NCBI RefSeq assembly: GCF_900258045.1
Contig: NZ_OGVD01000002.1
Span: 310,001-374,000, forward strand
Length of the DNA: 64,000 nucleotides
Source: Sphingorhabdus sp. EL138
Lineage (GTDB): Bacteria > Pseudomonadota > Alphaproteobacteria > Sphingomonadales > Sphingomonadaceae
Reading direction: 5' to 3'
In this document: in pieces, positions 11,324 to 50,399 of the stretch
How positions within the stretch are numbered: position 1 is the stretch's first letter
Layout: each line of letters opens with the position of its first letter
Notes under the pieces: generated by a model
Seen by the model: only the letters and a program-made list of their open reading frames with translations
Told to the model about the DNA's origin: nothing
Database searches by the model: none
Translations under genes and position numbers: made by a program

Positions 11324-12130
11324 TCAGCCGCGGAAATTTTGGCTCGTCACATCCGAAGCTCTCTCGGCACCTTTAATCGTGCAACTGGCCTGCATCCAAC
11401 GCAGGTTTAGGCCCACACGGCTGGCATTGATATCGGCCCAGCTATAGCTGACGGCGCTATCCGGCTTTTCGGGCTTGTGGACATAAAGAACCATGCTCGG
11501 CCGGTTGGTGCTGGGTTTCGGCCAATAAACGGCGCGCATGCGCAAGATTAACGGTTCTGCTCCGCTCTCTCCCCCGCCGACCATGACCCGTCCGCCCTGA
11601 TCATGCAGGTTTAGTTTTTGGACGAACAACCAGTCCGGGCTGCCATCTGCCTTGGGTTCAGTCTTCTTCGCTGCGGCCCAGCATTCGACAGGGCGGGCGC
11701 GTTTCAATTGGGTTTCGGTGCCATCGGCAAAGCGCAGTTTTAATCCATCGGCATTCACGCCGGTAATCTGATAATCCTGATTACAAAGTTTTCTGTTTTG
11801 CAGCTTGCTATAGGCCCAACCCGCATCTGTGCGATCAAAATTGCGGGTACACCCACCCAATGTCAGGCTGTCTCGCTCTACACCTATGGCTGCATATCCC
11901 TTTAAAGGTGCCGCAACCGCTTTGCCGAACGCATCTGTCCGGGTGACGATCAGATCATCGCCTTGCTTTTCAATTTTCAGTGCAATCCACGGTGGTGGAG
12001 TCCGGCCCGCATCCTTTTCAAAATAGGCTTGCTCTTCATTTGTATAAACACCAAGCAATTGCTGATCCAGCATCGCACTATTTTGTGATCCGGCAGTGAG
12101 CGCAAGAGCGGAGAGGCTGGTGAGAAACAT
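11324..12130 (-). CDS. Secreted protein of unknown function
   Basis: 268 residues from ATG 12130, preceded by AAAGGA and, 21 bases upstream, by the TTGTCCGGACAA site. A short signal peptide (MFLTSLSALALTAGS) leads into a protein I do not recognise. It contains at least five Cys residues after the signal (in LGGCTRNF, RKLCNQDY, VECWAAAKK, ASCTIKG), consistent with disulfides in the periplasm, and has a beta-rich look (LIVTRTDAFGKAV; GLKLRFADGTETQL). Membership of the operator set ties it to the same regulon as the receptors and the amine oxidase. It overlaps nothing and meets the LolA-like gene tail to tail. Confidence 0.65.
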   Translation of the reverse strand: MFLTSLSALALTAGSQNSAMLDQQLLGVYTNEEQAYFEKDAGRTPPPWIALKIEKQGDDLIVTRTDAFGKAVAAPLKGYAAIGVERDSLTLGGCTRNFDRTDAGWAYSKLQNRKLCNQDYQITGVNADGLKLRFADGTETQLKRARPVECWAAAKKTEPKADGSPDWLFVQKLNLHDQGGRVMVGGGESGAEPLILRMRAVYWPKPSTNRPSMVLYVHKPEKPDSAVSYSWADINASRVGLNLRWMQASCTIKGAERASDVTSQNFRG

Positions 12131-12150
12131 AGGGGTGGTCCTTTGCAAAT

Positions 12151-12162
12151 TTGTCCGGACAA
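12151..12162. promoter_or_regulatory. Operator-like palindrome TTGTCCGGACAA
   Basis: Perfect copy, 21 bases upstream of ATG 12130. The gene on the other side (SnoaL-like, stop 12194) is on the same strand, so this site marks a new transcription unit. Confidence 0.7.
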
Positions 12163-12193
12163 TTTAACAGCAATTGCGCAGGACGCAACAGCG

Positions 12194-12670
12194 TTAGGCC
12201 ATTGAGGCTGCACCTCGCTTGGCAGCCAGTTCGAACAGACCGCGATCACCCATTTCCCATGTCACGTTGAGTTGGGTCTTGTGGATCAGCCAGCCACTAC
12301 CGTTTCGCTCCAGTTCGTGCACATAATAGCCGCCGATACTATGCATTTGCCGGTCGTCATTAACAACAAGATGGTGATGGGCGGCCATATAACAGGTACA
12401 GGTGGCGCTATCGCCCTCGAGGGTGATGATAAAATTTGTCAGCACATGCTGAGTGGCATCAAACGGCTCCAGCGTCGCTCGAACACCTGCGACCCAATTA
12501 TCGGCTGGCATGGTACTGGCTGGATCGCCCGACCAGCTGGAGAAATCCAATCTGACCTCATCCGCGAAGATGGAGCGGTAGAGATCCCATTGGTGCCGGT
12601 CGATACCCGTGGCATATTTCAGCACATGGTCGGTAATGGTCGCCCGGTCGATCAAGTCATCATGTGTCAT
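12194..12670 (-). CDS. SnoaL-like / scytalone-dehydratase-type NTF2-fold protein
   Basis: 158 residues from ATG 12670 (TGGAG ribosome site; an in-frame TTG at 12682 is less likely). The layout is the cone-shaped NTF2 fold: helical start DLIDRATITDHVLKYATGIDRHQWDLYRSIFADEVRLDF, then strands with AAHHHLVVNDD and NGSGWLIHKTQLNVTWEMG. Families with this fold include dehydratases, isomerases and ring hydroxylases. A SnoaL-like protein is known to dehydrate 7-hydroxysteroids in a bile-acid-degrading sphingomonad (my recollection of Hsh2), so a dehydratase on a cyclic substrate is a fair hypothesis here. It follows the TIM-barrel gene by 12 bases. Confidence 0.75.
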   Translation of the reverse strand: MTHDDLIDRATITDHVLKYATGIDRHQWDLYRSIFADEVRLDFSSWSGDPASTMPADNWVAGVRATLEPFDATQHVLTNFIITLEGDSATCTCYMAAHHHLVVNDDRQMHSIGGYYVHELERNGSGWLIHKTQLNVTWEMGDRGLFELAAKRGAASMA

Positions 12671-12682
12671 TCTCGTCTCCAA

Positions 12683-13480
12683 TCACGCAAGCAACGCCTT
12701 GCTTGCTGATATTGCTTCAAACGCCCATTGTTCTGCGTCAAAATGTTGTCCGGGCGCATAATGGGGTACTTCAATGTCAAGATCGACATGATCTCCCAGA
12801 AGATCAATTAGTGCGCTGAGCGGGAACATGCCCTCGCCGGGGATCATCCGGTTCATCGCTTCCTCAACATAGTCATCGGATTGTCGAAAATGCGGGCCGT
12901 CGCATATCTGGGCATAGCCGATGATCCGGGGATCAACGGCGTTGAGTTGTTCCAACGTTCCACCTGTCCGGAACATATGAAGGGCGTCGATGGCGATTCT
13001 CAGATTGGCTTGGTTCATCGCCTCATGCAGTTTCACTGCTTTTTCAAGACTGTCGCAGCCTTTCGCAAAGCCGGTAAACTCCAGACCAATTTCCAATCCC
13101 AAACCGCGCACCGTTTCGCAAAGCGCGCCCAGTTGATCAGCGATGCGGGTAGTATCTGTTTCATGGATATGTGTGACGGCACGTTTGGCGCCCAATTCCG
13201 CGGCCAGCTCCAACGCGCCGGTATATTCGATGACATCAATCTCTGGCATGACCGGGAAATATTCGGCGTTGACGATAGAAACACCATGATCGGTGAGCAG
13301 AGATTGAAATTCTTCTCGATCACCGGCTGCCACAACCGGAAACATATTCTCACCGGCCTCTGTTTTAGGAGAGCTGGTAAATAGACAGATTTTCTTCAGA
13401 CCCGCTTTTGCCGCGAACAGGACAAGCCCCGCCGGGCCACCTTGTGTCATTGTAATTTGATGGAGAGCCAAGTCGCGCAT
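12683..13480 (-). CDS. Sugar-phosphate isomerase/epimerase-like TIM-barrel protein
   Basis: 265 residues of the xylose-isomerase-like barrel. Likely divalent metal ligands appear at strand ends: Glu in IGLEFTGF, Asp/His in IAIDALHMFRTGG, and Glu in DLDIEVPHY. The family includes isomerases, epimerases and some lyases or dehydratases used in catabolism (for instance inositol and dehydroshikimate routes), so the name does not imply a sugar substrate. It is the first gene of a two-gene unit with the SnoaL-like protein and is divergent from the CoA ligase at 13640. The 159-base divergent gap contains an inverted repeat at 13510. Confidence 0.75.
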   Translation of the reverse strand: MRDLALHQITMTQGGPAGLVLFAAKAGLKKICLFTSSPKTEAGENMFPVVAAGDREEFQSLLTDHGVSIVNAEYFPVMPEIDVIEYTGALELAAELGAKRAVTHIHETDTTRIADQLGALCETVRGLGLEIGLEFTGFAKGCDSLEKAVKLHEAMNQANLRIAIDALHMFRTGGTLEQLNAVDPRIIGYAQICDGPHFRQSDDYVEEAMNRMIPGEGMFPLSALIDLLGDHVDLDIEVPHYAPGQHFDAEQWAFEAISASKALLA

Positions 13481-42004: not shown

Positions 42005-44158
42005 CTAACTCCGGGCCCAGTTAAAATAACGCTCCAGCCATTTCAGTGCCCATTCCGGCTTGTGCTTCTTGCGCCATTCGCCAGCAGCAAATTTATTCGC
42101 CTCCGCCATGGTCGGATAGGTATGGATCGTACCGAGAATCTTGCCGAGGCCAAGGCCGTGTTTCATTGCCAGCACATATTCGGTAAGCAGCTCACCGGCA
42201 TTCTGACCCACTATGGTCACGCCCAAAATCCTGTCCTTACCCGGCGGTGTCAGCACTTTGACAAAGCCTTCGGTCGCGCTTTCGGCAATGGCGCGGTCGA
42301 GATCATCAAGACCATATTTGGTGACCTCATATTCGATGCCCTCTTTTTCAGCCTCTTGCTCATTGAGGCCAACATGCGCGATTTCGGGATCGAGGAACGT
42401 CGTCCACGGTAGAAATTCATAACCTGGCTTGAACTTCTTATACCGCCCGAACAGCGCATTTACCGTGGCGAACCATGCCTGATGAGAGGCATTATGGGTC
42501 AGTTGATAGGGACCTGCAACGTCGCCTGCAGCATAGATATGTGGGAAAGTCGCCTGAAGATGGTCATTGGTGACCAGCGTCCGGTCGGTTTCAACGCCAA
42601 GCTCTTCAAGACCGAATCCTTCAAGCCGCGCCGCGCGGCCAACAGCGATCAGCAGATCGTTAAAGGGCAGGGCCTGTTCGCCGCTGTCATTCTCGACAAT
42701 GATCATTTTGGTGCCGTTCTGTATCTCTGTGCGTAGAGCCTTGTGATTGCAGAGCAACGTAACACCGGAGTCTTTCAGTGCCTTGGCTGCGATCTCGGAA
42801 ACATCCTCATCCTCGATACCCATTACCCGATCGGCCATTTCGATCAGTGTGACATTGCTGCCGAGGCGCGCAAAGGACTGCGACAGTTCACAACCAATCG
42901 GGCCGCCGCCCAGCACCACCATTTTTTCCGGTACAGTATCGCGTTTGGCCATTTCCTCCCACAACGTATCGCTGGTCAGATAGCCGGTCTCATCGAGGCC
43001 GGGCAGGGGCGGAACGAACGGTCGTGCACCAGTCGCGAGCACAATCGCCTTGCCGGTCAGCGTTTGGGTACCGCCGTCATTGCGTTCAATCTCGACGGTC
43101 CAGGGATCAGTCAACCGGGCATAGCCCTGCACCACATCCACGCCGAGGCCTTCAAACCGTTCGACGCTGTCATGCGGCTCAATGGTTTTGATGATGTCTT
43201 CGACCCGGGTGATCACATTTTTAAAATTGATGATCGGCTTGGTGGCGGTCAGGCCATAGCGATCGGCATGCTGCATCTGATCGGCAATTTTGGCACTCTT
43301 GATGAGCGCTTTCGATGGGACACAGCCATAGTTGAGGCAGTCTCCACCCATCTTGCCTGACTCGATAAGTGTGACCTTGGCATTGATCGTCGCAGCGATC
43401 AGTGAGGATACGAGCCCGCCGGAACCCGCACCAATGACGATGAGGTTACGGTCGAATTTCTTCGGTCTGTTCCAGCCTTTGTAGATTTTCCGGTTGTTGA
43501 TAAAGCCGATAATGCCTTTGGCGATCCAGGGGAATATCGCCAGCAGGACAAAGGAGCCGATGACCGAGAGGGAGAAGACCCCGCCAACCGAGTCGACTTG
43601 CGACAGCTGCGTACCCGCGTTCACATAAACGATCGTGCCGGCGAGCATGCCAATCTGGCTGGCGATAAAATATTTCCACACCCGCATTTTGGTGAGACCC
43701 ATGAGCAGGTTCACAACAAAAAACGGAAAGGCCGGGACCAGCCTGATCGAGATCAGGTAGAAAACGCCGTCGCGCTTGATGCCTTCGTTGATGTTTTTGA
43801 GTCGTTGGCCGAATTTATTCTCGACCCAGTCGCCGAGCAGGTAGCGTGAGGTGAGGAAAGCAATGGTCGCACCGATGGTAGACGCAAAGGACACGACAAT
43901 AGTACCGACGACAACGCCAAATAATGCACCGGCGGCCAGTGTCATCACCGCGGCACCAGGAATCGACAGGGCAGTGACGGCAACATAGATCAGGAAAAAC
44001 ACGCCGATGATGATGAGCGGATTGGCTCTGTACTGCGCATCAATCGCGTCCTGCTGTGCTTTCAGGTTTTCTAGCGTGAGCTGCGAACCGAGATCATAGT
44101 AAAAAAATGCAAATATCGCCGCGACGATAACGGCCAGAACCAGTAATTTCTTCCACAT
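42005..44158 (-). CDS. TVP38/DedA-like membrane domain fused to a flavin disulfide reductase
   Basis: 717 residues from ATG 44158 (AGGGGAA upstream). Residues about 1-225 are a TVP38/TMEM64 (SNARE-associated) membrane domain with several hydrophobic helices (GVFFLIYVAVTALSIPGAAV; FYLISIRLVPAFPFFVVNL). From about 235 the protein is a pyridine nucleotide-disulfide reductase: GAGSGGLVSSLIAA, redox CLNYGC (CxxxxC), FAD segment GDVAGPYQLTHNAS and a C-terminal HTYPTMAE. It resembles MerA/dihydrolipoamide dehydrogenases but lacks the mercury-binding HMA domain and terminal Cys pair. Membrane quinone or thiol redox is plausible; substrate unknown. Confidence 0.88.
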   Translation of the reverse strand: MWKKLLVLAVIVAAIFAFFYYDLGSQLTLENLKAQQDAIDAQYRANPLIIIGVFFLIYVAVTALSIPGAAVMTLAAGALFGVVVGTIVVSFASTIGATIAFLTSRYLLGDWVENKFGQRLKNINEGIKRDGVFYLISIRLVPAFPFFVVNLLMGLTKMRVWKYFIASQIGMLAGTIVYVNAGTQLSQVDSVGGVFSLSVIGSFVLLAIFPWIAKGIIGFINNRKIYKGWNRPKKFDRNLIVIGAGSGGLVSSLIAATINAKVTLIESGKMGGDCLNYGCVPSKALIKSAKIADQMQHADRYGLTATKPIINFKNVITRVEDIIKTIEPHDSVERFEGLGVDVVQGYARLTDPWTVEIERNDGGTQTLTGKAIVLATGARPFVPPLPGLDETGYLTSDTLWEEMAKRDTVPEKMVVLGGGPIGCELSQSFARLGSNVTLIEMADRVMGIEDEDVSEIAAKALKDSGVTLLCNHKALRTEIQNGTKMIIVENDSGEQALPFNDLLIAVGRAARLEGFGLEELGVETDRTLVTNDHLQATFPHIYAAGDVAGPYQLTHNASHQAWFATVNALFGRYKKFKPGYEFLPWTTFLDPEIAHVGLNEQEAEKEGIEYEVTKYGLDDLDRAIAESATEGFVKVLTPPGKDRILGVTIVGQNAGELLTEYVLAMKHGLGLGKILGTIHTYPTMAEANKFAAGEWRKKHKPEWALKWLERYFNWARS

Positions 44159-44426
44159 GCGTTTTTCCCCTAACCTTTGAACAGGACGCTTTTCATAGTT
44201 CTCCTTGGTTCGTGCCAAGGCCTTAACGGGTTACAGGAACGCCGTCGATCTCGTTTTTTGCTATAAAAGCGTTGGAATTGCAGCAAAAAAACAGAAAATT
44301 CTCCGCCAATTGCCAAATCGCAACAAGCGAAAAAGCGAATCGGCATAACAAGGGGATGTCGCATGAAGCGGCACATAACAGGGCCTCTTTACCCCCTTCC
44401 TTGTTCGTTCAGGGAAAGATGAGAAG

Positions 44427-44450: not shown

Positions 44451-44957
44451 ATGAAAATGACTAAAGTATTGGCGGCATCCGCTGCAGCAGCTGCTTTGGC
44501 CGTTGGCGCACCTGCCATGGCTCAGCTCAATCAAAATAACGATGTCACCGACACAGACAATGGTGCTGTCGTTGTTAACGATCTGCTTGATGTATATCTG
44601 GCAGCAGATGCCAGCACAACAAATACGCTGGACGACATCAACAGCAATAACAACAACAACAACGACCTTGTTATTGCTACGCAAACGCTGACGGCATACA
44701 ACACCAACTCTCAGATGGATGAACTCATCGATCTTGATGGTGAAGATGGTACACCGGCTCCCGTCGGTTATAACAGCGGCGACAACTATGTTCGCGGCAG
44801 TGCCTTCGCAGCTTTTGCGGGTATCTTGAACCAATCATGGAATACCGGCGTAAACAACAACAACCAGGCTGCAACCAACATTGCGGCACAGGGCTCCATC
44901 AACTTCGGTGATGGCGCTGGTGAAGCAGCTGGCGGCGGCGCTGGCGGCGGCGATTAA
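44451..44957 (+). CDS. Secreted Asn/Gly-rich protein, candidate amyloid subunit (Fap-like)
   Basis: 168 residues with a Sec signal peptide (cleavage after APAMA at about 24). The mature protein is low in charge and rich in Asn, Ala, Thr and Gly: an SNNNNNND run near the middle, TGVNNNNQAATNIAAQGS near the end, and a Gly-rich tail. The G-V-N ... N-Q-A ... N-I-A pattern is reminiscent of the imperfect repeats of FapB/FapC functional amyloids, though only one clear copy is present. It is first in a four-gene + strand group that includes a C39-type peptidase. An amyloid or adhesive surface role is inferred. Confidence 0.6.
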   Translation: MKMTKVLAASAAAAALAVGAPAMAQLNQNNDVTDTDNGAVVVNDLLDVYLAADASTTNTLDDINSNNNNNNDLVIATQTLTAYNTNSQMDELIDLDGEDGTPAPVGYNSGDNYVRGSAFAAFAGILNQSWNTGVNNNNQAATNIAAQGSINFGDGAGEAAGGGAGGGD

Positions 44958-44976
44958 TCGCCCAAGCGACAAGGAC

Positions 44977-45005
44977 GGGCCGGTTTCAGCCGATGGAGCC
45001 GGCCC
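44977..45005 (+). other. Intercistronic hairpin
   Basis: GGGCCGG (44977-44983) pairs with CCGGCCC (44999-45005) across a 15-base loop in the 90-base gap between the first two genes of the group. With no T-run it is better read as an RNA-stability or attenuation hairpin, which would raise the ratio of the first product over the rest. Confidence 0.5.
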
Positions 45006-45047
45006 CTCCATCCTCCACATCCGCATCCCCAATCGGGAGTAAAGACG

Positions 45048-45419
45048 ATGAAAAAGCATTTTTGGCTTCTTATGACAGCCCCTCTGGCCATGACCGCCTC
45101 CCACGCGAGCGCTCAGGTAGCAGATCAGAATGCTGCGCCTCAGGCACCCGCGACTACCGAGCAGCAATCTGCGTCCCCGCTAATGTCGTTGGAAGAGCTC
45201 GACGAGCTCCGTGGCGGCACACAAATAGCGATTAACGAACAGACCTTTAACTCGGATAATACCGGCAACACGATCAATGGCGATTTTACCGCCGGCGATG
45301 TCAATCTGTCGGACAATTCACTGTCCAGCTTTAACGGTCTTGGTAATATTGTGATCAACACCGGCGCACAGTCGGCACTCCAGGCAGGCCTGGCGGTGAC
45401 GATCAACATTACCGATTGA
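45048..45419 (+). CDS. Secreted protein with double-glycine motif (amyloid-locus component)
   Basis: 123 residues with signal peptide (cleavage near SHASA at about 22). After a Gln/Ala/Pro-rich spacer comes MSLEELDELRGGTQ (46-59), resembling a double-glycine leader end (Leu/Glu pattern then GG at 56-57). The part after GG is Asn/Thr/Ile rich (NEQTFNSDNTGNTINGDF; LGNIVINTGAQS) and looks beta-prone. A closely similar motif occurs in the protein at 46251, and a C39-type peptidase, the class that cleaves after GG, is encoded between them. Ribosome site GGGAG. I infer a processed, exported minor subunit. Confidence 0.65.
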   Translation: MKKHFWLLMTAPLAMTASHASAQVADQNAAPQAPATTEQQSASPLMSLEELDELRGGTQIAINEQTFNSDNTGNTINGDFTAGDVNLSDNSLSSFNGLGNIVINTGAQSALQAGLAVTINITD

Positions 45420-45433
45420 GTAAGGTGTAGGCC

Positions 45434-46240
45434 ATGACCCCCTCTTCCCCCATCCCGAATGGCCTATCCCACGCCTCTCCGCCCTTTAAGAACCGCTTGA
45501 AAGCCATCTTGAAGGGCGGACTGCTGGCTCTTGCCGGCACCTCCCTGTTTTGCAGTTCCATAGCCCAGGCCGAAGTCCGCTTGGGGCGGGAATCTATCGG
45601 CGGAGACTATTATGTCGGCGTGATGACCTGGTGGGATATCCCGTTCCGTTCGGTCATTCGCCAGAAATATGATTTCAGCTGCGGCTCCGCGGCGGTCGCG
45701 ACGTTGCTGACCTATCACTATGATCGCCCCACCAGTGAACGCACCCCGTTTAAGGCAATGTGGGACCTGGGCGATAAGGAAGCGATTAAAGAGGTCGGTT
45801 TCTCGATGCTCGACATGCGCCGGTATCTGCAATCTATCGGTTATCGTGCCGAAGGCTTCAAGCTGACAATGGATCAGCTCAGCCAGGTAAAACGCCCGGT
45901 TATCGTGTTGCTCGACCTTGATGGTTTCAAGCATTTCGTTGTGGTCAAGGGGCAGACAAAAGACCAGGTGCTGGTCGGCGACTCTGTTCTGGGTATCAGC
46001 AAATATTCGACCGAGGATTTTACGAAATACTGGAACGGCGTCGCGCTGGCGATTGTTGACGGGCCGATAAAAAGCCTGCCCAAATATAATCTTGCCGGTG
46101 ACTGGAACCGCTGGTCCACTGCACCAACCGACCAGGTTTCGGCAACAGCCACGATCGGCAATCTAACCAACCACCTTCCCCCCCTGTACCAGATATCGCC
46201 AGAGCTATTGCTCGATGTGCGGGTTGGTACGATCAGATGA
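45434..46240 (+). CDS. Periplasmic C39-type cysteine peptidase (FapD-like)
   Basis: 268 residues. An N-terminal signal peptide (hydrophobic about 28-45, ending SIAQA) precedes a papain-like C39 domain: Gln77 and Cys83 in IRQKYDFSCGSAAVATLL, His167 in GFKHFVVVKG and Asp183 in LVGDSVLG. C39 peptidases cleave after Gly-Gly in leader peptides and normally sit on ABC exporters; a free secreted version is the design of FapD, which is required for Fap amyloid export. It lies between the two GG-motif proteins (14 bases after the first, 10 before the second). Confidence 0.85.
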   Translation: MTPSSPIPNGLSHASPPFKNRLKAILKGGLLALAGTSLFCSSIAQAEVRLGRESIGGDYYVGVMTWWDIPFRSVIRQKYDFSCGSAAVATLLTYHYDRPTSERTPFKAMWDLGDKEAIKEVGFSMLDMRRYLQSIGYRAEGFKLTMDQLSQVKRPVIVLLDLDGFKHFVVVKGQTKDQVLVGDSVLGISKYSTEDFTKYWNGVALAIVDGPIKSLPKYNLAGDWNRWSTAPTDQVSATATIGNLTNHLPPLYQISPELLLDVRVGTIR

Positions 46241-46250
46241 GAGACGAGTC

Positions 46251-46844
46251 ATGACCTATAGACAAAAAGTTTTCGCCACGGTCGCCTGCATCGCGTCTTC
46301 TACCGCGATGCTATTGCCCCAAACCGCCAACGCTGAACCCGCAGCGGCGGTTGGTCTGCCCGCACTTGTTCCTGACGAAGATCTGGACAAGTTGCGTGGC
46401 GGGTTTGTGGTCAACGGGTTGGGCGTCAATTTCGGAGCTGATATACGCACATACGTCAATGGTGAGTTGCTGTTGCAAACCGTGCTGACCATGAATGACG
46501 ATGGTGCGCACACCTCCCAGACAGCTGCGGCAGGGCTAAGCCCGGTTGATGTCTCGACACTGGAAAATGGCGTGTTGTCAAATGGCAATATACGTATGAA
46601 AGTCGGCGACACACCCGTCTATCTGCTCAACAACGGCCAGACCGCGATTGCGCATGAGACCGCCAATGGCGTTCAGAACATGCTGATCAATACCGCCAGC
46701 GGCTTTGAAGCTGTCCAGGAAGTGGACGCCACCCTGTCTCTATCCGGATATGAGAGCTTCAATAGCGACCTGATGATGGATCGGATCGGCAACGCACTGA
46801 ATGACGTTGTGGGGCAAGCCGGAATTGGGGCGCTTAGAAACTAA
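46251..46844 (+). CDS. Secreted protein with double-glycine motif (second)
   Basis: 197 residues from ATG 46251 (GAGAGACGAG upstream; the frame opens earlier inside the peptidase gene). Signal peptide cleaves near QTANA (about 28). PDEDLDKLRGGFVV at 41-54 puts GG at 50-51, matching the LDELRGG of the gene at 45048. The remainder has no recognised domain; it is neutral, Asn/Thr/Ala/Leu rich and beta-prone (NGLGVNFGADIRTYVNG; NVNEGVL-like LENGVLSNGNIRMKVGD). Position and motif suggest a second substrate of the C39 peptidase. Confidence 0.65.
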   Translation: MTYRQKVFATVACIASSTAMLLPQTANAEPAAAVGLPALVPDEDLDKLRGGFVVNGLGVNFGADIRTYVNGELLLQTVLTMNDDGAHTSQTAAAGLSPVDVSTLENGVLSNGNIRMKVGDTPVYLLNNGQTAIAHETANGVQNMLINTASGFEAVQEVDATLSLSGYESFNSDLMMDRIGNALNDVVGQAGIGALRN

Positions 46845-47241
46845 GGCCAAACCGAGGAGGATTGACCGGTTGCCAATCCAGCCGGTCCAGACTGAAAGCA
46901 CCATGAACCATAGAGGGGGTTTGTGGTGCTTTTTTTGATGACCAGCCTTTTGATCGACCAACATCTTCCGCCGCCACGAGATTGATAGCCACAACCGCAA
47001 GACCCTGCGCCGTGTTTATCCAACGAAGGAGCCGGGTGGAGTTCCAGCGAGACTTTCCTGCATCGCCAAGTCCGGGTAACTTCCACTCGGTTCTTTCTCA
47101 ACTTTATATAAGCGGCCTATAAAAGGGTGTGTGATCTGTGTGAACTTTGGCACAGATCACTCGGTCAGACAGGCCAAAGGAGCTTGCAAACATTGTAAAC
47201 TTCGCCGGCAGCTCCGCTGGTACCCTCAAACCCTGGATGGT
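46845..47241. other. 397-base gap between convergent units
   Basis: I see no supportable gene here. It contains the terminator of the + strand group at 46895 and, to its right, unremarkable sequence up to the stop of the barrel gene at 47242. A 64-residue frame starting at 47131 overlaps the barrel gene and has no convincing ribosome site. Confidence 0.6.
46895..46936 (+). terminator. Rho-independent terminator of the four-gene group
   Basis: AAAGCACCA (46895-46903) pairs with TGGTGCTTT (46924-46932) over a 20-base loop and is followed by a T-run to 46936, 51 bases after the last stop. Confidence 0.7.
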
Positions 47242-48813
47242 CTAAAAGCGAAAGGGTATCCGGGCGACGATACTGACATCCGGGGCATCTTCAGTCACAC
47301 CGAACTGGAAACCCAGATTCAGTGACTGTTTTTGGCTAAGCCGATAGGACATTCCAAAATTGAGTGCCCCGACCTGAATGTCGTTGCTCTCCTGCAGCGT
47401 GTCGCCGAGCTGGCTCTTGGTAGAGAAAATATAGTTGTGGCGATAGCCTAGCGAAAAGGAAAAACGCGGGTTGAGCGCAAAGCCAAAGCCAACGCTGGCG
47501 TTAATTGCGTCACCGGGATCGACCTTGCCGACAAATACATCGCCAACGACCCGGTCGATATTGCGTTCGATATTCCATAAATAACCGGTGCCGCCATAGA
47601 TTACGACGGGGTCAGAAGGCAGCAAAAAGCTGATACTTGGCTGCACACCCCAAAAGCCCGATCCGGTGGCAAGTCCGGTTGCAACACCAAATTCGTCAAA
47701 CGGAATCTCGTAGGGACTGGTGCCTGTGTCGGTTTTGACACGTAGGCCAGCAACCCAAATAGGATTTTGTGGCTTGGGCCGGTTGAGCTGATAACGCAGA
47801 GAAATTTCCGCGTCACCTATTCCGGTTTCCTCCAAACCGACTTCTCGGGTAATCTGTTCTTCGCGTTGCTGGACGACCTGAATTCTGTCCTTGCGATAGA
47901 GCAGAGGAACGCGGCCCTCAATTTCGAGCCGGTTGGTCAAACCATAGCGCATGGCAAAAGTTCCGATAACGGTATCGCGGTCTGCATCGCTGGCTTCGAT
48001 CGCCCCGATCTGGATGCCGGGAATAAGTTCGATGCCGCGGAAAACCAGTCGATTGGTTGACGAGCGTGTATATTCGATCGAGGGATCCAGCACGAATTGG
48101 CCGCGCGGTGTGAGCACGCCTTGGCCTTCCGGCACAGCCTCAACTTTTTGCTCGATATTATTGGCGGCCGGTGGTGCTTCGCCAACGGGGCCTTCCGGCA
48201 TGGTCAGTTCGTCATCCGGGGTCGTCCCGATCTGTACCGCAGCCGTCTCTACCTGGCTTCGCTGAATGCCAGCGCCGCGCATTTGTGACAGGGCAAAAGG
48301 CGTTTCCACCGGCGCTGCTGCACGTACTAGCTGATTGTGCAACTCGAGTTGCTTGATCTTGTCATTTTGTGACTGGATGAGTGCATTCTGGCTCGCGATC
48401 AGTTGCTTCTGCTCCGCCAACTCCGATTGAATGGCCTGCAAGGCAGCGGTGATATTTGTCGTGTCCTTTGCGATTTGTGACTTCTTGGGGACAGGTCGCG
48501 ACTCCTTGGAAGCAGGTTGCGATTTTTGTGGAACTGGTTGGGGCTTTGCCTCGACAATCGCTAGTTTGACGGTTGGTTTCTCCGGCTCGGCGGCCTGTTG
48601 AACCGCGGGTGATTGAACTTCCCGTAGCCGCGCAATGATGCGGGCGGTTTCCGCTTCCGCTTCGGCGGCGGTCAGTCTCGGCTCCTGGCTCATGTGGTTC
48701 GGCTCGGGGGTCTCGGAGGTTTCGGAGGTCGCGGCCATTGCCGATCCTCCGGCAAAAGTGGCAACGGGAAAGGCGATAATGGCTTTAAAGGGGGTGAAGC
48801 GATTGCTGGTCAT
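47242..48813 (-). CDS. Outer-membrane beta-barrel with N-terminal coiled coil (FapF-like)
   Basis: 523 residues from ATG 48813 (CGGAGAA upstream). Signal peptide ends near SAMA (27). A Pro/Lys/Gln-rich region follows, then a heptad-like coiled coil at about 120-165 (ALQAIQSELAEQKQLIASQN). From about 240 the protein alternates amphipathic strands (LVFRGIELIPGIQIGAIEAS; FSFSLGYRHNYIF) and ends in Phe, typical of outer-membrane barrels in the phenol-degradation/MetA-like group. FapF, the Fap amyloid export pore, has the same plan: coiled coil then a barrel of that family. Transcribed toward the amyloid-like genes; a Crp/Fnr regulator precedes it by 35 bases. Confidence 0.78.
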   Translation of the reverse strand: MTSNRFTPFKAIIAFPVATFAGGSAMAATSETSETPEPNHMSQEPRLTAAEAEAETARIIARLREVQSPAVQQAAEPEKPTVKLAIVEAKPQPVPQKSQPASKESRPVPKKSQIAKDTTNITAALQAIQSELAEQKQLIASQNALIQSQNDKIKQLELHNQLVRAAAPVETPFALSQMRGAGIQRSQVETAAVQIGTTPDDELTMPEGPVGEAPPAANNIEQKVEAVPEGQGVLTPRGQFVLDPSIEYTRSSTNRLVFRGIELIPGIQIGAIEASDADRDTVIGTFAMRYGLTNRLEIEGRVPLLYRKDRIQVVQQREEQITREVGLEETGIGDAEISLRYQLNRPKPQNPIWVAGLRVKTDTGTSPYEIPFDEFGVATGLATGSGFWGVQPSISFLLPSDPVVIYGGTGYLWNIERNIDRVVGDVFVGKVDPGDAINASVGFGFALNPRFSFSLGYRHNYIFSTKSQLGDTLQESNDIQVGALNFGMSYRLSQKQSLNLGFQFGVTEDAPDVSIVARIPFRF

Positions 48814-48848: not shown

Positions 48849-49565
48849 TTATGCGGCGGACAACTCGCCGAGGCAAAGGTCAGCTGCGGGATGGATATCG
48901 GCTGCCGGTTCTGCGGTCAGGCTTTCCTGATACTCGCCGGCTAGGCGGCACAGCCCCGCATTATCTGTGATGATGACAGAGTCCCGGCCATTGATCCTGA
49001 TCAGGCCGCGGCGCGCCAAGTCGGTAAACGTCCGGCTGACGGTATGAACTGTTAGGCCCAGGAAGTCGGCTATGTCGCTTCTCGACATCGGAACAAATAT
49101 GTTGGGATCATCGTTGGCCTGTTGTTTCAGGCACAGCAGGAAGGCTGCCAGCTTTTCGGTTGCAGTCCGGTGACCCATTATGAACAGGTAGCGCTGAGCG
49201 GTCGACATTGCGCGAAACAATATCGAAACAGCCTCGTCCAGTTGCGGCTTTGGCGTTGAATCCTGCGTGATATCTCCGACCCGGTAACAGCGCACGACAA
49301 CATCGGTCACTGCCTCGGCTGCCGTTCCATAGGTTCCGTAATCGGCTCCGAAGACGTCGCCGCTAAAGAAAAAGCCGGTGAGATGCCGGTGCCCATCCAT
49401 ATGAAAACGGCATGTGCGAACAGTGCCCTGCACCACCTCGTACCAGCGTGTAGCTTTCTGTCCTTCGTCAAAGATTAATTGCCCTGCACGAAACCGCAAA
49501 GTGGTCGAGCGCAAGTTTGAATGAAGCCCCTGCATCATCGCGGGGGCGGATAGTAGCGATTGCAT
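48849..49565 (-). CDS. Crp/Fnr-family transcriptional regulator
   Basis: 238 residues. Cyclic-nucleotide-binding-type beta roll (FRAGQLIFDEGQKATRWYEV; TGFFFSGDVFGADYG), long dimer helix (ILFRAMSTAQRYLFIMGHRT) and C-terminal HTH SRSDIADFLGLTVHTVSRTF, similar to the FixK/FNR recognition helix. There is no N-terminal Cys cluster for an oxygen-sensing Fe-S site. It is just upstream of the FapF-like barrel gene and probably in the same transcript, hence a candidate regulator of this locus. Confidence 0.85.
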   Translation of the reverse strand: MQSLLSAPAMMQGLHSNLRSTTLRFRAGQLIFDEGQKATRWYEVVQGTVRTCRFHMDGHRHLTGFFFSGDVFGADYGTYGTAAEAVTDVVVRCYRVGDITQDSTPKPQLDEAVSILFRAMSTAQRYLFIMGHRTATEKLAAFLLCLKQQANDDPNIFVPMSRSDIADFLGLTVHTVSRTFTDLARRGLIRINGRDSVIITDNAGLCRLAGEYQESLTAEPAADIHPAADLCLGELSAA

Positions 49566-50102
49566 CCGTGCTGTCTCCTCTGGACCCTCAGCACGACCCT
49601 TTTCGTTTGTTCCGCACCCATATTCTTTAGAATATTGAACACGGCCTCAGATGCGACCTTCTGTTGTTTTGTGGCGATTATGTACGGCAAAAGCACCGAA
49701 ATGGTCTATCCAGCGATTCGCGTGTTTTGAATCCCAAGCGAATCTGCGTGCTGGTTTTTACTAGGTAATTTTACCTATGGAATTTCCATAACATGTAAAT
49801 TACTGTAAATTCAAAGAGTTGGCATGGACGTTTTTGTCCTATCGCGATTCTATGGTATGAGAGTAAAAGATTAACCATCGCAGGACAGCAATGATCCAGC
49901 GATTCAAAATTTGCGACGATTTGTTGGGGAGGGAACCACCAACAGTCTAATTGGTCGGTCCTTTGAGACCGTACTATGTTGCGAGCACCGCTCAGCTGCA
50001 GCGATCGATGTCGCTCGCGGTATAGCGGCCGAGACAAATGGGGGCATTTGTTAGTCGGCAAGCTTCACGGCTTGTTCGATATTATAGAAGGTATTCCTCG
50101 TG
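49566..50102. other. 537-base gap between Crp/Fnr and LuxR-type genes
   Basis: No gene seen. AT-rich stretch around 49750-49810 contains two overlapping perfect palindromes (separate entry) and repeated GTAAAT words. It presumably holds promoters for the regulator at 49565 (-) and for the small LuxR protein (+). Confidence 0.6.
49762..49790. promoter_or_regulatory. Two overlapping perfect palindromes
   Basis: TAGGTAATTTTACCTA (49762-49777; 7-base arms, TT centre) overlaps TATGGAATTTCCATA (49776-49790; 7-base arms, single T centre). Their placement in the divergent promoter gap 197 bases upstream of the Crp/Fnr start suggests paired operators. Neither matches a consensus I can name. Confidence 0.5.
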
Positions 50103-50399
50103 ATGTTACAGCAAAAGAGTTTGACCAACGGTCCAGTGCTCACGCTGAGAGAGCATGAGATATTGGAGTTTATTGCGCAGGGGCTTTCGACCAAGGAAGT
50201 GGCGCAACATATCGATATTGCGCCGCGTACAGTGGATCGACATGTGGAGAATGTACGGCTGAAGTTAAGAGCAAAAAACCGCACGCATATGGTGGCTTGT
50301 GCCGTGATGGAAGGTCTTTTGCAGGTCAAGGTGGACAGGGAAGAGCATTCCTCTCCCAGCGCGTTCCCGCAGATGGATATGTCAGAACATGATGATTAA
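50103..50399 (+). CDS. Small LuxR-type HTH regulator
   Basis: 98 residues consisting of little more than a LuxR/GerE helix-turn-helix: LTLREHEILEFIAQGLSTKE, then IDIAPRTVDRHVENVRLKL and an acidic tail. No sensory or receiver domain. ATG 50103 is used (AAGG about 12 bases before); the adjacent GTG at 50100 is possible. Such single-domain regulators are typically controlled by their own level or by partner proteins. Between the amyloid-like locus and the beta-galactosidase, so its targets could be on either side. Confidence 0.75.
   Translation: MLQQKSLTNGPVLTLREHEILEFIAQGLSTKEVAQHIDIAPRTVDRHVENVRLKLRAKNRTHMVACAVMEGLLQVKVDREEHSSPSAFPQMDMSEHDD

Follow-up and report, generated by a model that had tools for sequence, protein, structure and literature searches.

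A probable Fap-like fibre export locus in Sphingorhabdus with double-glycine leader motifs flanking a FapD-related C39 peptidase

Introduction

When a gene for a FapD-like C39 peptidase stands close to one for a FapF-like outer-membrane barrel, is the locus a Fap functional-amyloid operon, and what does its peptidase cut? This question is raised by a block of five genes in a 64,000-nucleotide stretch of the 3.66 Mb genome of Sphingorhabdus sp. EL138 (positions 310,001 to 374,000 of contig NZ_OGVD01000002.1), which we call the window and in whose numbering all coordinates of this locus are given. The block encodes the proteins P1 to P5, and its five open reading frames were recovered exactly where the initial annotation, made from the sequence alone, had placed them. 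That annotation viewed it as a divergent Fap-type locus. We find that the homology to FapD and FapF, the conservation of the set and the character of an export locus stand, but that the locus is not canonical Fap, since P1 shows no FapB/C repeat. Probably it encodes a Fap-like system for the export of fibres, on a lineage distinct from canonical fapABCDEF, in which P3 would remove leaders from P2 and P4.

Fap has been described as confined to the Beta-, Gamma- and Deltaproteobacteria, with FapD and FapF belonging to larger families (PMC3792158). Co-located fapD and fapF homologues have been reported in five further phyla (PMC6173800); hence, linked fapD-fapF pairs outside Fap are already known. 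The target of FapD was called unclear in 2017 (PMC5557850) and its substrate 'yet to be determined' in 2018 (PMC6173800), and a 2025 review gives FapE and the periplasmic portion of FapF as its presumed substrates (PMC12822426). Our searches, made in an open-licence library only, turned up no description of the partners P2 and P4, their leaders or FapD cut sites.

The peptidase and the barrel

P3 (45434..46240, + strand; 268 residues) is a C39 peptidase with a Sec-type N-terminus, signal peptides being a by-eye judgement throughout this work. Its best family match is the NCBIfam FapD model (1.6e-46), which bears out the proposed FapD homology, and it also matches Pfam Peptidase_C39 (9.5e-21). 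The Gln-Cys-His-Asp set that had been ascribed to it is complete: Q77, C83, H167 and D183 each show a conservation of 97% or more across 53 aligned homologues. Among named records its relatives include a protein of Parasphingorhabdus marina with 78% identity and many from Sphingopyxis with 61-67%, and a peptidase at least 73% identical to P3 is present in 16 of 32 same-genus genomes, its own genome counted. In some loci of our group C (defined below; e.g. LLGGCA in L054) the N-terminus of the FapD relative looks, by eye, like a lipobox, and the protein may be a lipoprotein there.

P5 (47242..48813, - strand; 523 residues) combines a coiled-coil region with a barrel, and the FapF homology suggested for it is likewise upheld: NCBIfam FapF is its best family match (3.1e-41), it matches the solved FapF structure in the PDB at 1e-29 over residues 235-523, and it shares 89 identities in 378 aligned columns with a Pseudomonas-type FapF. 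Both proteins also match components of the Acinetobacter Fil 'putative pilus' system, P3 matching FilB (5.2e-31) and P5 matching FilC (1.4e-18). On the matches of these two proteins, it is nonetheless scarcely credible that the locus belongs to the Fil system: FapD and FapF score higher, and L160, L162, L163 and L167, which look Fil-like by eye, form a separate peptidase clade.

Double-glycine leaders on either side of the peptidase gene

The genes flanking that of the peptidase encode P2 (45048..45419, + strand; 123 residues), a small secreted protein in a FapA-like position, and P4 (46251..46844, + strand; 197 residues), a secreted FapE-like protein. Each carries a leader after its Sec-type N-terminus: MSLEELDELRGG before T in P2 (45183..45218, + strand), with the cut predicted after it, between G57 and T58, and VPDEDLDKLRGG before F in P4, whose PDEDLDKLRGG core lies at 46371..46403 (+ strand), with the cut predicted before F52. 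The leaders end in M-S-L-E-E-L-D-E-L-R-G-G and V-P-D-E-D-L-D-K-L-R-G-G, respectively, and both satisfy the double-glycine leader consensus LSXXELXXIXGG (as quoted in PMC6181422). We searched the whole genome for [DE]LxxØRGG at the DNA level with a partial back-translation, in which Arg was written only as CGN and Leu as YTN; this gave four sites, against two for the reversed control pattern. Two of the four, 1.2 kb apart and with P3 between them, are the leaders of P2 and P4; the remaining two fall at residue 500 of 807 in a TonB-receptor-like frame and at residue 186 of 281 in another frame.

The initial annotation had listed these two as small secreted GG-motif proteins. They are better read, from their sequences, as a distant FapE relative (P4) and a FapA-position protein (P2), and are likely to be substrates of the P3 peptidase rather than FapB/C subunits. 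For P4 the detectable match to FapE consists of the leader motif and about 25 residues: with the motif included, the group A downstream protein matches FapE of the PSE loci (both groups are defined below) in an hhalign comparison at 73% (E 3e-5, 31 columns), and beyond these residues its mature part has no detectable homology to Pseudomonas FapE. The predicted structure of mature P4 is beta-rich (predicted local distance difference test score, pLDDT, 64.4) and gave no fold match at 0.001.

A leader of this form, along with the C39 catalytic residues, is also what the locus has in common with peptides of C39 ATP-binding cassette (ABC) exporters, such as bacteriocins and competence peptides, and a bacteriocin-like peptide model gives a weak match to residues 44-69 of P2 (0.017, below its cut-off). 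We nevertheless regard it as very improbable that P2 and P4 belong to the double-glycine peptides of bacteriocin or signal type and have a processing peptidase of their own: unlike such peptides, they have Sec-type N-termini before the leader and are accompanied by a stand-alone peptidase, the genes are linked with fapF, P1 and P2 have a C-terminal block in common, and no ABC transporter was seen by eye among the window's open reading frames, a point on which no dedicated search was made.

Conservation of the set and two lineages

FapF relatives are present in 36 of 246 genomes of the order, and each of the 36 stretches around them (L032-L067) also encodes a C39 peptidase relative. We assembled 105 loci into groups whose names are working labels and not taxonomy: A, the window-type group (40 loci), B (13), C (12), PSE (8; loci above the FapD cut-off), BETA (10) and OTH (22), with L066 and L067 left ungrouped. 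In group A, 30 of the 40 loci were obtained via similarity to P3, there are several near-identical loci, and one record stands twice, as L032 and L114; counts are also given for representatives, whose peptidases are less than 80% identical (15 in group A). The expectation that the five genes would stay together in relatives is borne out: P1 and P2 are present in 40 of 40 window-type loci; 34 of the loci have FapF within the stretch, 33 have it on the opposite strand, and 33 have a Crp/Fnr relative. The corresponding counts for the 15 representatives are 15, 15, 13, 12 and 12. Six group A loci have no FapF in the stretch, and in all five of their genomes that were searched it was found elsewhere. 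In L100, L101 and L103 a fapF-like gene is retained about 7-9 kb from the peptidase gene, and in L126's genome about 80 kb away.

The protein encoded directly downstream of the peptidase divides these loci in two. With the motif removed, the mature parts match mutually at 95-97% among A, B and OTH, and at 97-99.5% among PSE, BETA and C; between the two sets they match at no more than 1.3% without the motif and at 24-78% with it. A midpoint-rooted FastTree phylogeny of the peptidases recovers the same two sets and places the P3 clade apart from the Pseudomonas-type enzymes. L056, which we filed in group C, carries RGG and is placed with the window-type loci (support 0.92). All 35 Gly-Gly representatives fall on the window-type side and all 18 Gly-Lys/Arg representatives on the other. 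The window-type clade occurs outside the Alphaproteobacteria too. As far as sequence comparison reaches, the locus belongs to a distinct Fap-like lineage, present in Sphingomonadales and in further Pseudomonadota.

The initial annotation expected an alphaproteobacterial version to be new or little described; the group C sphingomonads show that an alphaproteobacterial Fap is not special in itself. In 11 of their 12 loci a loose expression finds encoded proteins that have two or more FapB/C-type repeats, and the 9 of these 11 loci that are in the peptidase tree all fall in the canonical clade.

The leader motif across loci

A motif related to [DE]LxxØRGG, [LMIV]xxxRG[GKR][FYMLW] or in short LxxxRG[G/K/R][F/Y], is carried by the product of the gene directly downstream of that for the peptidase in 84 of the 105 grouped loci (A 35/40, B 11/13, C 10/12, PSE 8/8, BETA 9/10, OTH 11/22), and the five group A loci missed by the expression have an RGGF form on homology look-up. 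Among non-redundant loci the count is 53 of 66, with Pseudomonas-type fapE among the carriers: A 15/15, B 10/12, C 8/10, PSE 5/5, BETA 6/7, OTH 9/15 and others 0/2. The background is 2 of 304 proteins of sphingomonad stretches and 81 of 16,800 shuffled N-termini.

Since the expression was written after seeing the sequences, it was tested on further loci: a held-out set of 13 alphaproteobacterial loci outside the order, of which 10 were judged, L175 and L185 (no peptidase in the stretch) and L177 (peptidase cut by the edge) having been set aside. The motif is present in 7 of the 10, with matrix scores of 17.8-31.6, and was not found in L176, L182 and L183; in this set L180 and L181 belong to one genus, and L173 and L180 to the same genome. 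L179 has the textbook form in three proteins: LSNEELADLRGG before F, ISTEELAEARGG before S and, in its FapF, LSDDELGEARGG before V.

The score matrix was built from the downstream protein only; FapF was scanned at full length, and all frames near the locus were scanned. On the upstream small protein it scores 6.4-23.5 in 14 of 15 window-type representatives (L126 missing); P2 of the window scores 21.5, and the best of 246 background proteins 5.8. In 7 of the 8 PSE loci the FapA-position protein has L[SNG]DxD[FI]xx[VI]x[SG]G, and a looser expression, written after the look, also finds it in 3 of 10 BETA and 1 of 12 group C loci.

The motif might instead be left uncut and bind P3 or P5 as a signal for docking or chaperoning, as in tether-only C39-like domains. 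In favour of this, Arg at -3 and Gly at -2 are invariant in the 53 motifs, themselves chosen for RG, with G, K or R at -1. We hold it unlikely: the relatives of P3 keep the catalytic Gln, Cys, His and Asp, and secretion of FapC in the Pseudomonas system needs the Cys, the C38A substitution in FapD abolishing it (PMC5557850).

The absence of FapB/C repeats

P1 (44451..44957, + strand; 168 residues) is an Asn/Gly-rich secreted protein and the proposed fibre subunit; the longest frames of its relatives range from 166 to 453 residues. P1, P2 and P4 have no family match above cut-off among Pfam and NCBIfam models. The FapB/FapC imperfect repeats are almost always three (PMC12822426); a search of groups A, B and OTH with the repeat model gave at best 1.8 bits, and no repeat in P1. 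A clean profile comparison of P1 with the repeat gave 4.1%, below several of 60 shuffles (up to 60.1%), so that a FapB/C-type repeat in P1 is not supported. An earlier hint of 27.6% for the P1 C-terminus was dropped, as its set included mis-sorted P2 rows, and so was a 7.3% match from the OTH subset, exceeded by 2 of 40 shuffles (23.8 and 25.1). Iterated profile searches seeded with FapE, P1 and P2 merged the families and are not used as evidence.

P1 and P2 themselves have a C-terminal block in common, roughly [AS][FL]xxxxG[IL]xxxxxNTGxxxxxQ. Their family profiles match at 90-93%, and the C-terminal blocks at 94.6%, as against at most 14.3% in 60 shuffles. Two side observations concern these genes in other window-type or related loci: L033 has two neighbouring P1 paralogues (11931-13156), and in L147 (4488-9870) the block of P1, P2, C39 peptidase and downstream protein is a tandem duplicate with very similar copies.

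The alternative that this is an ordinary canonical Fap operon, merely rearranged, with P1 as a degenerate FapC, has in its favour that FapD and FapF are the best named families for P3 and P5, and that the protein downstream of the peptidase carries the common motif. The likeness to Pseudomonas Fap indeed comprises a FapD-type C39 peptidase with a Sec-type N-terminus, a FapF-type coiled-coil barrel, an LxxxRG motif after the signal peptide of the downstream protein and a small protein in a FapA-like position. P1 shows no FapB/C imperfect repeat; hence, a defining feature of Fap is lacking, and the locus is not canonical Fap. Further, P3 (158 bits) and P5 (141.5 bits) both remain under the NCBIfam equivalog cut-offs of 330 and 700 bits, the P3 clade differs from the Pseudomonas-type enzymes, and the window lineage has Gly-Gly where Pseudomonas Fap has Gly-Arg/Lys. 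The window locus also departs from the canonical single fapABCDEF or fapBCDEF order: the genes run P1-P2-D-E, with F convergent beside a Crp/Fnr gene. A mere rearrangement is, in our view, improbable.

In concept, the arrangement resembles curli (csg), in which Asn/Gln-rich subunits are exported via a dedicated outer-membrane pore, although the pore family differs.

The FapF linker and a proposed mechanism

A leader-like motif, LSQMRGA, also lies in the linker between the coiled coil and the barrel of P5 (48271..48291, - strand), preceding the plug and barrel region. Of 34 window-type FapF proteins, 31 (11 of 13 representatives) have the variant [LMIVA]xxxRGxG at a distance of 335-375 residues from the C-terminus, and the linker scores above the matrix threshold in 8 of 10 group C representatives (8.0-19.4). 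In group B, RG stands at the aligned linker place in L050 and L051. The linker of Pseudomonas FapF has been suspected of being processed (PMC5557850). We considered the DEASGFFGG of Pseudomonas FapF as the same motif and dropped it, as it is placed in the plug helix (PMC5557850).

We propose that Sec exports P1 to P5 to the periplasm, where P3 would free P2 and P4 of their leaders by cutting behind the double glycine of L-x-x-L-R-G-G, and may also act on the P5 linker between LSQMRGA and the following G, after A181. These cuts would license P1, P2 and P4 to leave through the FapF-like barrel and to assemble as a surface fibre that may be amyloid in nature. The homology of P3 and P5, the conservation of the set, and the presence, position and conservation of the leader motifs are seen in the sequences; the cleavage, the order of events, the export route and the fibre with its amyloid nature are inferred. 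That the peptidase is periplasmic, that secretion depends on its Cys and that FapF serves as the pore are presumed by homology with Pseudomonas (PMC5557850). In favour of the proposal, no N-terminal peptides of FapE were seen in the published data (PMC5557850).

Several observations weigh against this proposal. The published peptide map has FapA peptides throughout, which was read there as no processing (PMC5557850). P4 matches canonical FapE profiles at only 0.2-0.3% after motif removal, and P2 matches the FapA profile at 4% (hhalign), even though its position and motif fit FapA. Structure prediction gave no confident model of P1 (pLDDT 40.6), which leaves the amyloid question unaffected either way. 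The strict motif is absent in 13 of 66 representatives, with near forms in L059, L062 and L145, and the matrix yields false matches of 6.0-7.5 in overlapping frames and inside barrels. For the linker, P5's own copy, LSQMRGAG, falls below the matrix threshold, which is exceeded in only 3 of the 13 window-type representatives having FapF, the window not among them, and is reached in group B in L050 only; the FapF proteins of PSE and BETA were found without the linker motif. Finally, all 18 motif-bearing representatives of the canonical clade have Lys or Arg as the residue that follows RG, which is not predicted by a classical C39 site.

This last residue is mirrored in the peptidase: its position 79 is Tyr or Phe in 34 of 35 Gly-Gly loci and Thr in 17 of 18 Lys/Arg loci. 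As the co-variation coincides with the two clades of the peptidase tree, it is a lead only. A more general possibility, which we put forward tentatively and rate at somewhat under even chances, is that all Fap-type systems share one peptidase code, LxxxRG[G/K/R] or its GA/GT variants; FapD would cut FapE and the FapA-position protein, joined in many lineages by the linker of FapF, and the canonical clade would have moved the last residue from Gly to Lys/Arg along with a change from Tyr/Phe to Thr four residues before the catalytic Cys.

Regulatory setting and neighbouring genes

The genes for P1-P2-P3-P4 lie head to tail, with intergenic gaps of 90, 14 and 10 bases. Converging on them is the pair formed by the barrel gene and the gene for a Crp/Fnr family (FixK-like) regulator (48849..49565, - strand), co-oriented and directly upstream of the fapF-like gene, so that the opposite-strand placement described at the outset agrees with the reading frames and family matches. 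An intrinsic-terminator-like hairpin with a T-run lies 3' of P4 (46885..46940, + strand; z -5.0) and is absent from the list of a separate terminator pattern scan, which gave 5 matches in the window (shuffles, mean 7.0). A promoter scan gave 7 (shuffles, mean 4.5, standard deviation 2.3). Fnr-type boxes number 14 in the whole window against 8.4 expected, as many being reached in 3 of 100 shuffles, and none of the 14 is 5' of P1.

In five loci picked for testing, a sigma-54 activator adjoins fapF (L128 2413-3738; L142 9419-10774; L041 7305-8762; L043 7400-8914; L146 8795-10120), with a VpsR-type domain above the Pfam cut-off in four of them; the window-type group has its Crp/Fnr-type gene at this place. 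Beyond the Crp/Fnr gene of the window lies one for a small LuxR-type DNA-binding protein (50100-50399; 99 residues). Beside P1 is a long frame (42005-44218, - strand), which by eye reads as a fusion of a membrane domain with a pyridine-nucleotide-disulphide oxidoreductase.

Implications

Published surveys, one of GTDB genomes (PMC12822426) and another of Fap (PMC12392863), required FapB/C repeats and, by that rule, would not count repeat-less sets such as this one. Our observations suggest that the export core of FapD, FapE and FapF can work with a candidate fibre protein that has no FapB/C repeats. The sequences further suggest a cut position for the protease of the system: the sphingomonad lineage keeps the textbook C39 site, so that the position is predictable to the residue. 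If the shared peptidase code is true, a single C39 enzyme would free the helper proteins and detach the coiled coil of the pore.

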